Below, one piece after another: positions 16,607 to 59,610 of a stretch of 61,613 bases of DNA. Each line of letters begins with the position of its first letter. Positions within the stretch are counted from its first letter, which is position 1. Origin of the DNA: Lysobacteraceae bacterium NML95-0200 (GTDB taxonomy: Bacteria; Pseudomonadota; Gammaproteobacteria; Xanthomonadales; Xanthomonadaceae). Below the pieces are notes generated by a model. That model worked only from the letters and a program-made list of their open reading frames with translations. It searched no databases and was not told the DNA's origin. The stretch covers positions 1 to 61,613 of the forward strand of contig NWQQ01000016.1 in NCBI GenBank assembly GCA_002798255.1, in the 5' to 3' direction. Both the position numbers and the translations under genes were made by a program.

Positions 16607-18250
16607 ATGAGCCTTACGCTTGCCCTGATTCTGGTTTTGGCCGCTGCCCTGCTGGCGGCGTTGATTGTCTGGCTGCTGCTTGGTGGCCGTCATGCGGCGC
16701 AGATGCAGCGTCAGCAAAGTGCACATTTGCAGGCGCTCTCTGCCACCCAGCAGGAGTTGGCCGGGCTGGCCGAAAAGCACAAAATCAGCCAGCAGCAATA
16801 CCTGCAAGCCGAGCAACAGCTGGCATCGGTGCAGGCGGCATTTTCCGAGCAGCAGCGGCAACTGGTCGAGTCACAAACGCTCAATAAGCAACTGCCGCAA
16901 TTGCAGCAGCAACTGGCCGATTACAGCCAACGCTGGCAGGCAGGCGAGCAGCGCGCGCTGGACTTGCAAAGCCGCAACGCCGCAGCCCAGACACAGATTG
17001 CCCATCTTGAGCAACAGGCACAGGCGCTTGCTGCGCTGCGTGATGAGTACGCCCAGTTGCAGCAAACACTGGAGCAAACCCGCGTGGAAAACGAGCGGCT
17101 GCGCACGCAATGGCGGCAGGCGGAGCAAACACAGGCAGAAAAGCTGGCGCTACTACAGGACGCCCGTGAAAGCCTAGGACATCAGTTCCAGCAGCTTGCG
17201 CAAAAGGTACTGGAAGAAAAATCGCAAAACTTTTCCCGGCAAACCCAGGAGAATCTCGGCCAACTGCTGAACCCGCTGAACCAGCAAATCAGCCAGTTCG
17301 GCCAGCTTATCCAGAACACCTATGAAAAAGACACCCGCGAGCGCAGCGCGCTGGAAGTTGAACTCAAGCGCCTGCAAAGCCTCAATACCCAGCTGCATGG
17401 CGATGCCAGGGCGCTGACCCAGGCGCTCCTGGGCAGCCGCAACAAAACCCAGGGCAACTGGGGTGAAATCATTCTGGAAAGCGTGCTTGAGCACTCTGGC
17501 CTGACCCGCGGGCGGGAATACATCGTGCAGGCGGCCAGCACCCGTCAGGAAGAAGACGGCAGCATCCGCCGCCTGCAACCGGACGTGCTCATCAACCTGC
17601 CGGATGGCAAACAAATCGTCATCGACAGCAAGGTGTCACTCACCGCCTATGTGCGTCATGTCAAGGCCGAAGACGCCGCCAGCGCCGAGGCCGCCCTGCG
17701 CGAACATGTCGCCAGCGTGCGCGGTCATATGCGTGAGCTGTCACTGAAGAACTACAGCCAGCTCGATGGCGTGAACACGCTGGACTTCGTATTCATGTTC
17801 ATCCCGGTGGAGCCGGCCTATCTGCTGGCGCTGCAACACGACGACAAGCTGTTCAATGACTGCTTCGAAAAACGCATCATGCTGGTCGGCCCCAGTACCT
17901 TGCTTGCCACCTTGCGCACCATCGCCAATATCTGGCGTAACGAGCAACAAAACCGCAACGCCCAGGAAATCGCTGATGAAGGCAGCAAGCTCTACGACAA
18001 ATTCGTGGGCTTTGTGGAAACGCTGGAAAGAGTCGGCAAAAACCTGAATCAGGCGCAAAACGATTACCAGCAGGCGTTCTCTCAGCTCTCCGAAGGGCGC
18101 GGCAACTTGGTGCGGCGCGTGGAAAAATTGAAAGCGCTGGGTGTCAGAAGCAAAAAAAACCTGAGCACCGAATTGCTGGAAAAAGCCGAACACAACCACT
18201 TGCAGGCACTCAACGCGCCTTTGGCCAAAGACAAGGAAGAAAACGCATGA
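16607..18250 (+). CDS. rmuC: DNA recombination protein RmuC
   Basis: The 547-residue product has an N-terminal membrane anchor (LTLALILVLAAALLAALIV), a long Gln/Glu-rich coiled coil (about 35-230) and the RmuC nuclease-like domain (NWGEIILESVLEHSGL, then PDVLINLPDGKQIVIDSKV). RmuC limits inversions between short inverted repeats in E. coli; its catalytic activity is inferred from its PD-(D/E)XK-like fold. Its TGA overlaps an ATG at 18247 that begins a degenerate copy of the oleD 5' end, which is evidence that oleD once started exactly here. Confidence 0.95.
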   Translation: MSLTLALILVLAAALLAALIVWLLLGGRHAAQMQRQQSAHLQALSATQQELAGLAEKHKISQQQYLQAEQQLASVQAAFSEQQRQLVESQTLNKQLPQLQQQLADYSQRWQAGEQRALDLQSRNAAAQTQIAHLEQQAQALAALRDEYAQLQQTLEQTRVENERLRTQWRQAEQTQAEKLALLQDARESLGHQFQQLAQKVLEEKSQNFSRQTQENLGQLLNPLNQQISQFGQLIQNTYEKDTRERSALEVELKRLQSLNTQLHGDARALTQALLGSRNKTQGNWGEIILESVLEHSGLTRGREYIVQAASTRQEEDGSIRRLQPDVLINLPDGKQIVIDSKVSLTAYVRHVKAEDAASAEAALREHVASVRGHMRELSLKNYSQLDGVNTLDFVFMFIPVEPAYLLALQHDDKLFNDCFEKRIMLVGPSTLLATLRTIANIWRNEQQNRNAQEIADEGSKLYDKFVGFVETLERVGKNLNQAQNDYQQAFSQLSEGRGNLVRRVEKLKALGVRSKKNLSTELLEKAEHNHLQALNAPLAKDKEENA

Positions 18251-18389
18251 AGATTCTGGTGACAGGCGGTGGGGGGCGAGCCGCTGCGCCTGCACGCACC
18301 CACAAGGTGCGTGCGCAGTGGGCGAGCGCCATGCATGGACGCATGGCCGGATACAGCCGCCAGGGACGGCTCCATGTGAGAACAATGAA
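18247..18389 (+). repeat. 143-bp tandem repeat, copy 1
   Basis: The unit opens with a copy of the first ten codons of oleD ([10 protein letters not shown]). It then continues into about 112 bp of unrelated sequence rich in short inverted repeats (GCACGCAC/GTGCGTGC, CCATGCATGG) and ends with CAATGAA. Copy 2 follows immediately with the same length. The two copies differ at about seven positions. The non-oleD part looks like a dispersed intergenic repeat, which cannot be confirmed from one window. Confidence 0.95.
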
Positions 18390-18393
18390 ATGA
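18247..18393 (+). CDS. Mini-ORF 1 created by the 143-bp repeat
   Basis: A 48-codon reading frame that starts with ATG overlapping the rmuC stop (ATGA) and encodes [10 protein letters not shown] followed by a basic segment ([19 protein letters not shown]...). Its TGA overlaps the ATG of the next copy (ATGA, 18390-18393). It could be translated by coupling from rmuC. No known function; it may merely relay ribosomes to oleD or be a non-functional remnant. Confidence 0.4.
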
Positions 18394-18532
18394 AAATTCT
18401 GGTCACAGGTGGCGGGGGGCGAGCCGCTGCGCGTGCACGCACCCACAAAGTGCGTGCGCAGTGGGCGAGCGCCATGCATGGACGCATGGCCGGATACAGC
18501 CGCCAGGGACGGCTCCATGTGAGAGCAATGAA
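18390..18532 (+). repeat. 143-bp tandem repeat, copy 2
   Basis: This is a near-identical second copy of the unit at 18247-18389. Its oleD-like head matches the true oleD start (18533) through about 26 bases, and it ends exactly at the real start codon. The spacings 18247 to 18390 to 18533 are both 143 bp. Confidence 0.95.
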
Positions 18533-18536
18533 ATGA
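18390..18536 (+). CDS. Mini-ORF 2 created by the 143-bp repeat
   Basis: A second 48-codon frame, differing from mini-ORF 1 at two residues (Pro to Arg, Thr to Ala). It starts in the ATGA overlap with mini-ORF 1 and ends in an ATGA overlap with oleD (18533-18536). The chain rmuC, mini-ORF 1, mini-ORF 2, oleD is joined by three consecutive ATGA junctions. Confidence 0.4.
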
Positions 18537-19531
18537 AAATTCTGGTCACAGGTGGCGGTGGGTTCTTAGGCCAAGCCCTCTGCCAGGGCCTGCGCGCGCG
18601 CGGCTTTGAAGTTGTCAGCTTCAACCGCAGCCATTACCCGGCGCTGGATGAAATCGGCGTTACCCAGATTCAGGGCGATTTGGCCAGCCGCGATGCCGTG
18701 ATTCATGCCGCCAGCAGCTGCAACGCCATCTTCCACAATGCCGCCAAGGCCGGCGCCTGGGGCAGCTATGCCAGCTATCACGCGGTGAATGTCACCGGCA
18801 CCGAGAACGTGCTGGCGGCCTGCCGTGCGCATGGCATTGGCAAACTCGTGTACACCTCGACGCCCAGCGTGACCCATCGCGCTACGCATCCGGTGGAAGG
18901 CGGCACTGCCGATAACGTGCCCTATGGCGAAAATCTCAAGGCACCGTATGCGGCCACCAAGCAGATAGCCGAGAAAATGGTGCTGGCGGCCAACAGCACA
19001 ACCCTTGCCACCGTGGCGCTGCGCCCGCGCCTGATTTGGGGAGTGGGCGACAACCATCTGCTGCCGAACCTGGTCAAACGCGCCCATGCCGGAAAACTGG
19101 CGCTGGTGGGCGATGGCCAGAACCTGATTGACACCACCTATATCGACAATGCCGCCGAGGCGCATTTCGCCGCCTTCGCGCATCTGGCTCCCGGCAGCGC
19201 CTGCGCCGGGCGCGCCTATTTCATCAGCAATGGCGAGCCGTGGACGCTGGAAGCCACCTTGAATGCCCTGCTCAAAGCCGCCGGTGCGCCGCCGGTCAAG
19301 CGCAAGATTCCGTTCCGCGTGGCTTATGCCGCAGGCTGGCTGGCAGAAAAACTCTGGCCGCTCATCCAGCCCGATGGCGAGCCGCCGATGACGCCATTCC
19401 TTGCCGAGCAACTTGCCACCACCCACTGGTACAGCATGACCCCGGCGCAGCAAGATTTCGGCTACCGGCCGCAAGTGTCCATGACCGAAGGGCTGCGGCG
19501 GCTGGCGCTGGCTCATAAAATGCCCGCATGA
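18533..19531 (+). CDS. oleD: NAD(P)-dependent 2-alkyl-3-oxoalkanoate reductase, OleD-like
   Basis: Extended short-chain dehydrogenase/3-beta-HSD family, 332 residues. It has the Rossmann motif TGGGGFLG near the N-terminus, the catalytic YAATK, and family segments such as [25 protein letters not shown] and ATTHWYSM that I recognise from OleD of Xanthomonas and Stenotrophomonas. OleD reduces the beta-keto acid made by OleA during long-chain olefin biosynthesis. No oleA, oleB or oleC is in the window, so the pathway assignment is by family resemblance. The start at 18533 fits the Rossmann motif; an in-frame GTG at 18461 would add 24 repeat-derived residues. Its stop overlaps ubiJ. Confidence 0.75.
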
Positions 19532-20151: not shown

Positions 20152-21815
20152 AGTCGGCACGCCGCATCTGGCGGATAGGCCGGGTATTGCTGCGCTATCG
20201 GCTGGATGCGCTGCTTGATGGCACAGCCGCCGAGCGCTGGTTGAAGCTGGCGCGTCCGTTTGTGCCGCGCGCCAGCGCCGATGTGCAAGCCATGCCGCGC
20301 GGCCAGCGGCTACGCATGGTGTTGCAGGAGCTGGGGCCGATTTTTGTCAAAGCCGGGCAAATTCTCTCCACCCGCCGCGACCTGGTGCCCGCCGATGTGG
20401 CCGATGAGCTGGCGCTGCTGCAAGACCAGGTCAAACCCTTTGATGGCGATGAGGCGCGCGGCATCGTCGAGGCATCGCTCGGCCAAAGCATCACCGCGCT
20501 GTACTCGCGTTTTGACACTACGCCTCTGGCTTCGGCCTCAATTGCCCAGGTGCACGCCGCCACCCTGCACGATGGCCGCGAGGTGGTGGTCAAGGTGCTG
20601 CGCCCCAATATCCGCAGCCAGATTGAGGGCGATATCGCCCTGCTGTACGACCTGGCCGCTGTGGTGGAGCGCACCCATCCACGCGCCGACAAAATCCGTC
20701 CGCGCGAAGTGGTGGCGGAAATCGAATCCACCCTGGCCGCCGAGCTTGACCTGCAACGCGAGGCCGGCAATGCCAGTGTGCTGCGCCGCAACTGGCTGGA
20801 AAGCGGCGACCTGTACGTGCCGGAAGTCATCTGGACGCATACCAGCGAAAAGGTGATGACGCTGGAACGGGTGCATGGTATCCACAGCGATGACGTGGCC
20901 GCACTCGACAATGCCGGCATCGACCGCAAGGCACTGGCTGCCAAGGGCGTGCGCGTGTTCTACCAGCAGGTATTCCGTGACAACTTCTTCCATGCCGATG
21001 CCCATGCCGGCAATATCTGGGTGGACCCGGACCCGGCGCGCGCGGCCAACCCGCGTTTCATCGCCCTGGATTTCGGCATCATGGGGCAGCTCTCGCGTGC
21101 CGACCAGTATTACCTGGCCGAAAACTTCATGGCGATTTTCAACCGCAACTATCGCCGCATTGCCGAGCTGCATGTGGAGGCAGGCTGGATGCCCGCGCAT
21201 GTGCGTATTGATGAGCTGGAAGCTGCCGCACGCGCCATCTGCGAGCCGTACTTCACCCGCCCGCTGTCGGAAATCTCGCTGGCCGAAGTGCTGGCCAAGC
21301 TGTTCCGCATGGCGCAGCGCCACCAGCTCACCCTGCAACCGCAGTTGATTCTGCTGCAAAAGACCCTGCTGAACATCGAAGGCGTGGGCAGGCAGCTCGA
21401 CCCGCAAATCGACATCTGGGCAGTCGCCAAGCCGGTACTGGAAGCCATCCTGCGCGAACGCTACAGCCCGCGCCGCCTGCTGCGCGAAGCCGGGCAACGC
21501 CTGCCCGAATGGATAACCCGCGCCCCGGACATGCCCGGCCTTGTCCACGACTGGCTGAAGCAGCAAGTCCACGGCGGCCACCTGATTCAGATGCAATCCG
21601 AAGATGTACGCGTGCTCTCCAAAGACCTGCACATCATGCAAAAACGCATGATTTCCGCCGTGCTGGGCGCAGGCCTCTTGATTGTCGCCAGCGTGCTGTA
21701 CGGCCTCGATGCTGGTGGCCCACGACTTGCCGGCATCCCCGTCGCCACCTGGATTGCCGGCCTTGGCGGCATCTGGGCACTGTTTGCCGCCTGGCCACGA
21801 CGGCGGGTGAAGTGA
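20148..21815 (+). CDS. ubiB: Ubiquinone biosynthesis regulatory kinase-like protein UbiB
   Basis: Atypical ADCK/ABC1-family kinase-like ATPase needed for coenzyme Q synthesis, 555 residues. It has the hallmark KxGQ motif ([11 protein letters not shown]), the A-rich loop ([13 protein letters not shown]), the HADAHAGNI catalytic loop, the ALDFGIMG metal motif, and two C-terminal membrane helices (about 500-548). It is coupled to ubiJ by an ATGA overlap. Twenty nucleotides separate it from the next small gene. Confidence 0.96.
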
Positions 21816-58773: not shown

Positions 58774-59610
58774 ATGAACAAGACATTGCCTTTGCTACTG
58801 GTGTTGGCGCTCGCACCTGCGGCCACTTGCGCGCAGCAAAATTACAGTGAAGTGAGCAAGTCCATCCGCATTGCAGCGAGCACCCAGGCGGGTCATCTGC
58901 AATCGGTCAGTGGTCGCATTGAAATTGCCGAAGGCGCGCACGTGCGCAGCGCGAAGACCGTCAGCGGCGGGGTGAAACTGGCGCGCAATGTGCAGGCAGG
59001 CGATGTGGAAACGGTCAGCGGCCGGGTTGAAGTAGGCGACGGCGCGCGTGTGGGCAATCTGGAGTCGGTCAGTGGCACTATCGAACTGGGCGCCGATGTG
59101 CGTGGCGGCGATGTGGAAACGGTCAGCGGCAGCATCCGCGCCGGCACCGCCAGCCAACTGGGCAAACTGGAAACAGTCAGTGGCGCCGTGCGATTGCAAG
59201 GCAATAACCGCAGCGGAAAAGTGGAAAGCGTCAGCGGCAGTGTTTTCATTGGCAGCGGCAGCCAGGTCGCGGGCAGTGTGGAAACCGCCAGCGGCAGCAT
59301 TGGCCTGGTGCGCAGCACGGTGGAAGGCGATGTCATCACCTATGCCGGGGATGTCACCGTAGGTATCGGCTCGCACGTCAAAGGCACGGTGGTGGTGAAA
59401 AAGCCCAATTCGCAAAACAGCATTTTGCGGCTGCTGCCGGCCGGCGGGCAGCGGCTGCCGCGCATCATCATCAGCGCCGATGCCGTGGTGGATGGCGAGT
59501 TGCGCTTCGAACACGAAGTCAAACTGTATGTGCATGAGCGCGCACGCACCGGCCACATTCATGGCGCAACCGCGGTGCGCTTCAACACCCCGACCCCGCC
59601 CCGCGACTGA
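58774..59610 (+). CDS. Secreted protein built of 18-residue beta repeats
   Basis: The 278-residue product has a signal peptide (PLLLVLALAPAATCAQ) and about nine tandem repeats of roughly 18 residues (about 40-205), consensus VETVSGxIxxGxxxxxGx. These should fold as a stacked beta-helix or bactofilin/DUF4097-like array. A C-terminal region (PRIIISADAVVDGELRFEHE) resembles the polymer-forming cytoskeletal style. AGGAG is 8 nt before the ATG. Function unknown; a structural or adhesin-like envelope role is only inference. It is divergent from gpmI. Confidence 0.8.
   Translation: MNKTLPLLLVLALAPAATCAQQNYSEVSKSIRIAASTQAGHLQSVSGRIEIAEGAHVRSAKTVSGGVKLARNVQAGDVETVSGRVEVGDGARVGNLESVSGTIELGADVRGGDVETVSGSIRAGTASQLGKLETVSGAVRLQGNNRSGKVESVSGSVFIGSGSQVAGSVETASGSIGLVRSTVEGDVITYAGDVTVGIGSHVKGTVVVKKPNSQNSILRLLPAGGQRLPRIIISADAVVDGELRFEHEVKLYVHERARTGHIHGATAVRFNTPTPPRD

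Follow-up and report, generated by a model that had tools for sequence, protein, structure and literature searches.

A structured sequence of about 100 nt beside duplicated gene heads: a candidate mobile element at the rmuC-oleD locus of Lysobacteraceae bacterium NML95-0200 and elsewhere in its family

Two tandem units located between rmuC and oleD in Lysobacteraceae bacterium NML95-0200 each associate a copy of the oleD gene head with a structured body. Bodies of the same paired structure were found at other genes, at tRNAs and in other genera of the family, about half of those examined being flanked by a duplication of host sequence. From these sequence comparisons, the body is probably a non-autonomous structured mobile element whose insertion produces a long target duplication of variable length. 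The window analysed is a stretch of 61,613 nucleotides (contig NWQQ01000016.1, assembly GCA_002798255.1); G001 and G006 designate two sister species of NML95-0200.

Layout of the rmuC-oleD locus

The initial annotation had described two copies of 143 bp between rmuC and oleD, each opening with the first ten oleD codons, and sequence comparison confirmed both points. The two units (18247-18389 and 18390-18532) are 95% identical, with 7 differences, and a third, partial copy, which is the genuine oleD start (18533-18562), lies directly 3' of unit 2. The array is not due to chance, since its TRF score is 576, against 136 for the runner-up in the window. A diverged repeat with a period of 54 bp (65% matches) was also observed in the window at 58976-59131.

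In each unit the ten oleD codons are followed by 113 nt with stem-loops, made up of a body (about 98 nt, three stem-loops) and a short leader (Table 1). The three consecutive ATGA junctions and the two 48-codon mini-ORFs reported earlier were likewise recovered, at 18247-18250 (rmuC stop and mini-ORF 1), 18390-18393 and 18533-18536. Because the unit length is 2 modulo 3, each mini-ORF stops in the ATGA that opens the following head. With the duplicated head and this unit length kept as they are, the frame was open to the next ATGA in 39.6% of shuffled bodies, so that an open frame at the oleD locus alone is unremarkable. The Shine-Dalgarno interaction before head copy 1 (-5.4 kcal/mol) is stronger than that at oleD. 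No Pfam family was found for either mini-ORF peptide and no NCBIfam family for that of mini-ORF 1; a search of 18000-18800 against Rfam gave no family, its two sub-threshold matches being chance matches outside the units.

Table 1. Features of the rmuC-oleD locus (coordinates in the window)
Feature	Coordinates	Strand	Evidence and remarks
rmuC	16607..18250	+	ORF; PF02646 (Pfam) match; NF007686 match below its cut-off; TGA stop shares ATGA with head copy 1
oleD head copy 1	18247..18276	+	repeat comparison
element body copy 1	18275..18372	+	R1 115.5 bits; among the seven bodies used to build R1
body copy 1 stem-loops	18283-18319, 18328-18347, 18359-18370	+	structure counted in alignments
mini-ORF 1, 48 codons	18247..18393	+	stop shares ATGA with head copy 2
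oleD head copy 2	18390..18419	+	5' part resembles gene head, 3' part resembles head copy 1
element body copy 2	18418..18515	+	R1 111.1 bits; also among the bodies used to build R1
body copy 2 stem-loops	18426-18462, 18471-18490, 18502-18513	+	
mini-ORF 2, 48 codons	18390..18536	+	stop shares ATGA with oleD
oleD leader (3' end of unit 2)	18516..18532	+	Shine-Dalgarno -2.7 kcal/mol
oleD, intact host gene	18533..19531	+	product OleD (NF042422, score over cut-off)

Occurrence in the clade and origin of the locus

Among 60 genomes (NML95-0200 and relatives, E ≤ 0.001), the element was present in three, the two sister species carrying it at the same locus, with a gap of 100 N inside the array of G001. 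Sequence searches and the R1 model (see below) found no body elsewhere in the NML95-0200 genome, the oleD locus being the only site retrieved; copy number there rests on draft assemblies, as many of the genomes used here are drafts. A short core pattern searched in 297 family genomes was retrieved from NML95-0200 only. An exact 25-mer of stem-loop 1, which is too strict a query for distant copies, matched only two records of genome_contigs: JAUMYP010000008.1 (a MAG) and NWQT01000017.1 (Lysobacteraceae bacterium NML07-0707). Both scans of viral_contigs gave 0 matches and the phage search none; in plasmids, two matches of 28-29 bp do not correspond to the element, and the G231 unit (described below) gave none. 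The repeat GCCGCCAGGGACGGCT was rejected as a dispersed candidate in the NML95-0200 genome, as it occurs with two mismatches at 4 other places versus 3 for the control.

Restriction of the body to oleD in NML95-0200, at a locus common to three sister species, would agree with a single old local event, that is, insertion of an unrelated 113-bp segment into oleD and then plain tandem duplication with no mobile element; this scenario is very improbable in view of the same structured body and head duplication at other genes, tRNAs and genera. The initial annotation had itself regarded absence of the element elsewhere in the genome, combined with invariant copies in relatives, as the mark of an immobile duplication. 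No copy was found elsewhere in the genome, but the known copies are not invariant, and relatives carry the element at scattered places. That the array is an assembly artefact (a collapsed or chimeric repeat) is scarcely credible: the three genomes of the clade are drafts and one array holds the gap mentioned above, but two units of distinct sequence were assembled in both NML95-0200 and G006, and other genes show the same layout, including in the single-contig assembly G077.

The oleD gene was found in 17 of 17 genus genomes searched. In 11 of the 14 element-free ones, including the nearest, G010, the upstream ORF has an oleC-type end and shares four bases with oleD (the other three are without this overlap). 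The proposal that rmuC directly overlapped oleD in the ancestral state is therefore not supported. The AMP-binding gene upstream of oleD in relatives is taken to be oleC, and its homologue in NML95-0200 is on a different contig (G000:C23, L060), beside hemF. Close homologues of the window rmuC (95 and 99%) exist in the two sister genomes only, the other 14 genus members giving 26-31%. Since this rmuC was found in the three repeat carriers only and the oleC homologue lies elsewhere, a rearrangement brought rmuC to the former position of oleC; the element may have arrived either before or after it. Relatives of this RmuC, with up to 48% identity, were also noted in other genera of the family. 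The last dozen or so codons of the oleC homologue of NML95-0200 fail to align with G010.

Structure of the body and covariance model

Seven bodies were aligned over 98 columns and used to build a covariance model, R1 (two of them, L225 and L226, being dispersed copies considered again below). In this alignment, 97.7% of cells are paired (90.3% in shuffles), and two-sided changes affect 7 of 25 pairs, a number matched by 1 of 500 shuffles. Further pair types were not above shuffles, 143 of 500 reaching the same number. The structure was taken from six of the same seven sequences, so that this test is biased in its favour. With 38 distinct rows aligned to R1, two-sided changes were counted at 23 of the 25 pairs (15.9 in shuffles), and 96.0% of cells were paired versus 67.5% after shuffling and at most 49.9% in slid versions of the structure; being fitted to R1, this second alignment leans toward the model structure. 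The body opens with GGCGAG, and its end, of which the 3' border is only approximately placed, is not an inverted copy of this motif.

Dispersed copies and host duplications

A broad search gave many weak blast matches; nine contexts were inspected, and the only real one led to G077, which belongs to a different genus and has an identical layout in the oleC-oleD interval. Junctions upstream of oleD were then compared, at least 288 of the 297 family genomes searched having an oleD match. A second oleD-like head was found at 5 of 139 junctions (17 from the genus of NML95-0200, plus 22 and 100, with 7 of the 129 listed left out, and one, L218, shortened by a contig end), namely in NML95-0200, G006, G001, G077 and G231, the last belonging to a third genus. 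A sixth second-head match, L200, was discarded as noise. In G077 and G231, oleC is followed by a 4-nt overlap, a mini-ORF of 45 or 46 codons, a second 4-nt overlap and oleD.

Searches with R1 gave matches at E ≤ 0.01 in at least 21 of 395 family genomes and at least 12 of 54 genera, the clade of NML95-0200 included, with at least 1-4 matches per positive genome; these counts are lower bounds for the one family covered, as the best 10 candidates per genome were scored and strict filters applied. Among the 39 matches, 6 are those of NML95-0200, G006 and G001, and 31 of the other 33 were examined (L248 and L242 being left out). A host duplication whose left copy ends 4 nt or less from the body start was found at 15 of these 31 (12 of 22 and 3 of 9), two of which, L225 and L226, are model-building copies. 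At random sites, a duplication score of 17 or more was reached at 22 of 1200, and at 0 of 1200 with an end within 4 nt of the site; the score threshold was chosen after the scores had been seen, the lowest positive being 17.5. In an earlier control near the loci, 11 of 600 reached such a score, the end position being outside that test.

The duplicated sequence is the head of oleD in G077, G231, G158 and G178 (the last two outside the 139 junctions), of ubiG in G133, G178 and G107 (UbiG confirmed for G178 and G107), of purA in G064, of a gene of G178 which we take from its sequence to be accB, and of a molybdopterin-oxidoreductase-like gene in G133 (closest to PhsA, with a score under the cut-off). 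At tRNA genes, the duplicated starts are those of tRNA-Met in G107 and G095, tRNA-His in G107 and tRNA-Arg in G020 (L258). In G077, an antisense body with a duplication sits at the 3' end of a gene, presumably purD to judge from its sequence, and changes its last codons. The loci are not established as independent, and several of them (oleD and ubiG in genus g45) may go back to a single ancestral insertion.

Duplications are 22-90 bp long, and 122 bp in a tandem array, the G095 site being such an array with a second body found by R1. At 14 of the 15 duplicated sites, the last bases of the left copy are GG (TGG in most cases), the exception being tRNA-His (TTGGT), and GTGG precedes the body at many sites, though not all.

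The remaining 16 of the 31 matches are without host duplication. At five of them (L233, L234, L236, L249 and L255), a long upstream ORF stops at the TGA of the body-start GGTGAG, and at another, L231, the upstream ORF stops at the TGA of GCTGAT. The element may thus also sit at gene 3' ends, where it gives or adjoins the stop codon, a possible second mode. Three tandem bodies with a period of about 110 bp were observed in G062 (L252, about 1210-1531), and no copied gene head was found at the two of them that were examined.

Borders of the duplications

The alignable duplication starts at the start codon in the four oleD cases and in purA, 1 nt before it in accB and 4 nt before it in the oxidoreductase gene, and 2-3 nt before the tRNA for tRNA-Met (L229) and tRNA-His (L254). 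It starts inside the gene for the three ubiG copies (4-16 nt in) and for purD, and 22 nt upstream of the tRNA for tRNA-Arg (L258); at L239 the border is hidden by the tandem array. When G231 is compared with two members of its genus that have an empty site, G266 and G277, its left copy retains the original upstream context, so that the new material there consists of the body, the leader and the second head. The G231 arrangement is apparently that of an insertion with long, variable target duplication.

Most duplications begin near the gene start, which argues against this reading, since it is not expected of random target duplication. Such borders, as well as the variable lengths, would be accounted for by RNA-templated insertion, in which a nick after GG would prime the copying of a host RNA to its 5' end and then of the element RNA. 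Copying to the 5' end of a host RNA would give duplications starting at gene boundaries, as at oleD, purA, accB, the oxidoreductase gene and two tRNAs, but the ubiG, tRNA-Arg and purD duplications start away from them, and the mRNAs would need their 5' end at the start codon; we consider this mechanism improbable. Better survival of those insertions that restore the gene is the favoured explanation of the start-near borders, rather than host-RNA copying.

Translational coupling

At all of the 8 duplicated heads beginning with RTGA (oleD x4, ubiG x3 and the oxidoreductase gene), the truncated head and the body form one ORF ending in a 4-nt overlap with the genuine start. The unit lengths of these heads (134, 137, 194, 197 and 221) are all 2 modulo 3, and the body reading frame differs between the oleD and ubiG insertions. 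The chance of an all-coupled result is 2e-5 with six independent lineages (NML95-0200 included) and 0.005 with three genes. Open frames by themselves are weak evidence, because 8 of 9 inserted copies counted are open in two or three frames. The purA and accB genes begin with ATGG, which makes a 4-nt overlap impossible, and the ORFs of their left heads are soon closed by a stop. In 6 of the 8 cases, the left head shares 1-4 nt with the end of a long ORF before it, no overlapping upstream gene being found at L228 and L247.

Coupling is not preserved throughout the clade of NML95-0200: the G001 unit readable to its end carries a 1-bp deletion, and its mini-ORF stops at codon 26. The earlier idea of an element inserting just inside a gene head, copying this head and preserving translational coupling is supported in that the same body and arrangement occur at other genes and in other genera, but not for coupling in G001. 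Termination-reinitiation at ATGA overlaps is described in PMC6728339; the 4-nt overlap is the same here, except that it is recreated by the inserted unit.

Proposed mechanism and comparison with known systems

According to the target-duplication reading, which we prefer, an element of about 100 nt with three GC-rich stem-loops would enter directly 3' of a GG (TGG in most cases) read on its own strand, with the result that about 22-90 bp of host sequence preceding this site would be present on both sides of it. At a gene start, this would give the original leader, a truncated head copy, the body, a new leader and the intact gene. The insertions retained would be those in which the second copy extends as far as the gene start and the gene survives. 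In a gene beginning with RTGA, the truncated head would be in phase with the body and end in a 4-nt overlap, at which ribosomes arriving from upstream might restart translation on the intact gene.

A more specific proposal is possible, although we regard it as less likely than not: an undescribed mobile element of about 100 nt would enter the 5' ends of genes and tRNAs after GG and duplicate the host sequence back to the gene start (possibly via host RNA), with the gene and its coupling left working, so that heads of essential operon genes are colonised almost harmlessly. If so, small mobile DNA could enter the starts of ubiG, accB, purA or tRNAs without inactivation and with the ribosome hand-over kept, and upstream short ORFs with copied gene starts could mislead annotation and alter expression. 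Long host duplications tending to gene boundaries would point to either strong selection or an unusual insertion mechanism.

Integrative elements enter a gene end and restore the gene with a copy that they carry. The target gene is regenerated beside the insertion here as well, but about 100 nt is too short for an integrase gene, and the duplicated part is target-specific. In a plain tandem repeat (VNTR), all of the unit comes from local duplication, whereas the body described here also stands beside unrelated genes, some of them in other genera. IS200/IS605-type movement inserts 3' of a short motif that is fixed; at the duplicated sites described here, GG, mostly within TGG, ends the left copy in 14 of 15. 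MITEs are defined by terminal inverted repeats; none is visible at the ends of the body (3' border approximate). The host duplication of 22-90 bp is a difference from MITEs.

In PMC10969869, MITEs appear as small, non-autonomous and hairpin-forming, like the element proposed here, and Rickettsia palindromic elements (RPEs) as sequences of about 150 bp located in frame inside ORFs. The present element resembles the latter as a small palindromic sequence in frame inside an ORF; RPEs join the gene product, whereas in the present case an intact gene follows the element, which itself occupies a short ORF of its own or precedes a tRNA. REP/BIME elements mobilised by RAYT (IS200/IS605-like) transposases are described in Xanthomonas and Stenotrophomonas, where the palindrome of the Stenotrophomonas REPs is preceded by a GT(A/G)G head and 37-427 exact copies occur (PMC2817692). 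Short GC-rich palindromes between genes, and GTGG before the body at many sites, are common points; the three stem-loops in about 98 nt, where a REP has a single short hairpin, are a difference. The 37-427 exact copies compare with at least 1-4 matches per positive genome here. PMC2817692 gives no larger target duplication for known IS200/IS605 members, unlike the duplications of 22-90 bp (122 in the tandem array) at 15 of 31 sites. A literature search recognised nothing as a three-hairpin head-copying element in the sources covered, subscription journals being mostly outside its scope.

Divergence of units within the clade

Body differences affect 3 sites between the two units of NML95-0200, 1 between those of G006 and 5-9 between the two genomes. 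At five body sites, NML95-0200 and G006 each have their own base in both units, all five differences being non-synonymous in the mini-ORF frame, and no body site tells the first unit from the second in both genomes. Head differences within the clade are all synonymous. Column 21 of the head does distinguish the first unit from the second in both genomes, and over whole units, unit 1 of NML95-0200 has 6-7 differences with the G006 units and 7 with its own unit 2; homogenisation consequently holds for the body, not for the heads. Body homogeneity, together with the mosaic head copy 2 of NML95-0200 (Table 1), fits unequal recombination in the 30-bp heads: the long direct repeats left by insertion would have allowed such exchanges, which would yield the two units and shuffle head variants among the mini-ORFs and oleD. 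The heterogeneity of the heads inside each genome and head column 21 speak against it.

Synonymous divergence of rmuC and oleD is 0.05-0.06 between NML95-0200 and G006 and 0.33-0.36 between NML95-0200 and G001. Body divergence equals it in the first comparison (5/113 vs 35/627). In the second, it is far below that of synonymous sites (7/111; P below 1e-6), and the stem-loop part has 3/75 differences against 173/627 synonymous ones. Compared with plain coding DNA, the body has an average divergence for G001 and a high one for G006. The comparisons are thus mixed, and the stem-loops may be under constraint, as the second suggests.

Low stem-loop divergence, the conserved structure and the in-phase mini-ORFs would also be expected of a leader serving the host, in which stem-loops and a short upstream ORF act as an attenuator or translational brake and were spread by recombination rather than selfishly. 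The Shine-Dalgarno interaction, weaker at oleD than at head copy 1 in NML95-0200 and G006, points the same way, but not in G001, where that of oleD is -5.9 kcal/mol. Such a leader remains an unlikely explanation, in view of bodies placed ahead of unrelated genes, ahead of tRNAs and, in antisense, at the 3' end of purD, of a second head at just 5 of 139 oleD junctions, and of the five fixed, non-synonymous body differences.

Species relations differ at ubiB (window 20420-21815), where dS is 0.265 between NML95-0200 and G006 but 0.099 between NML95-0200 and G001, the opposite of rmuC and oleD, which suggests recombination between species.
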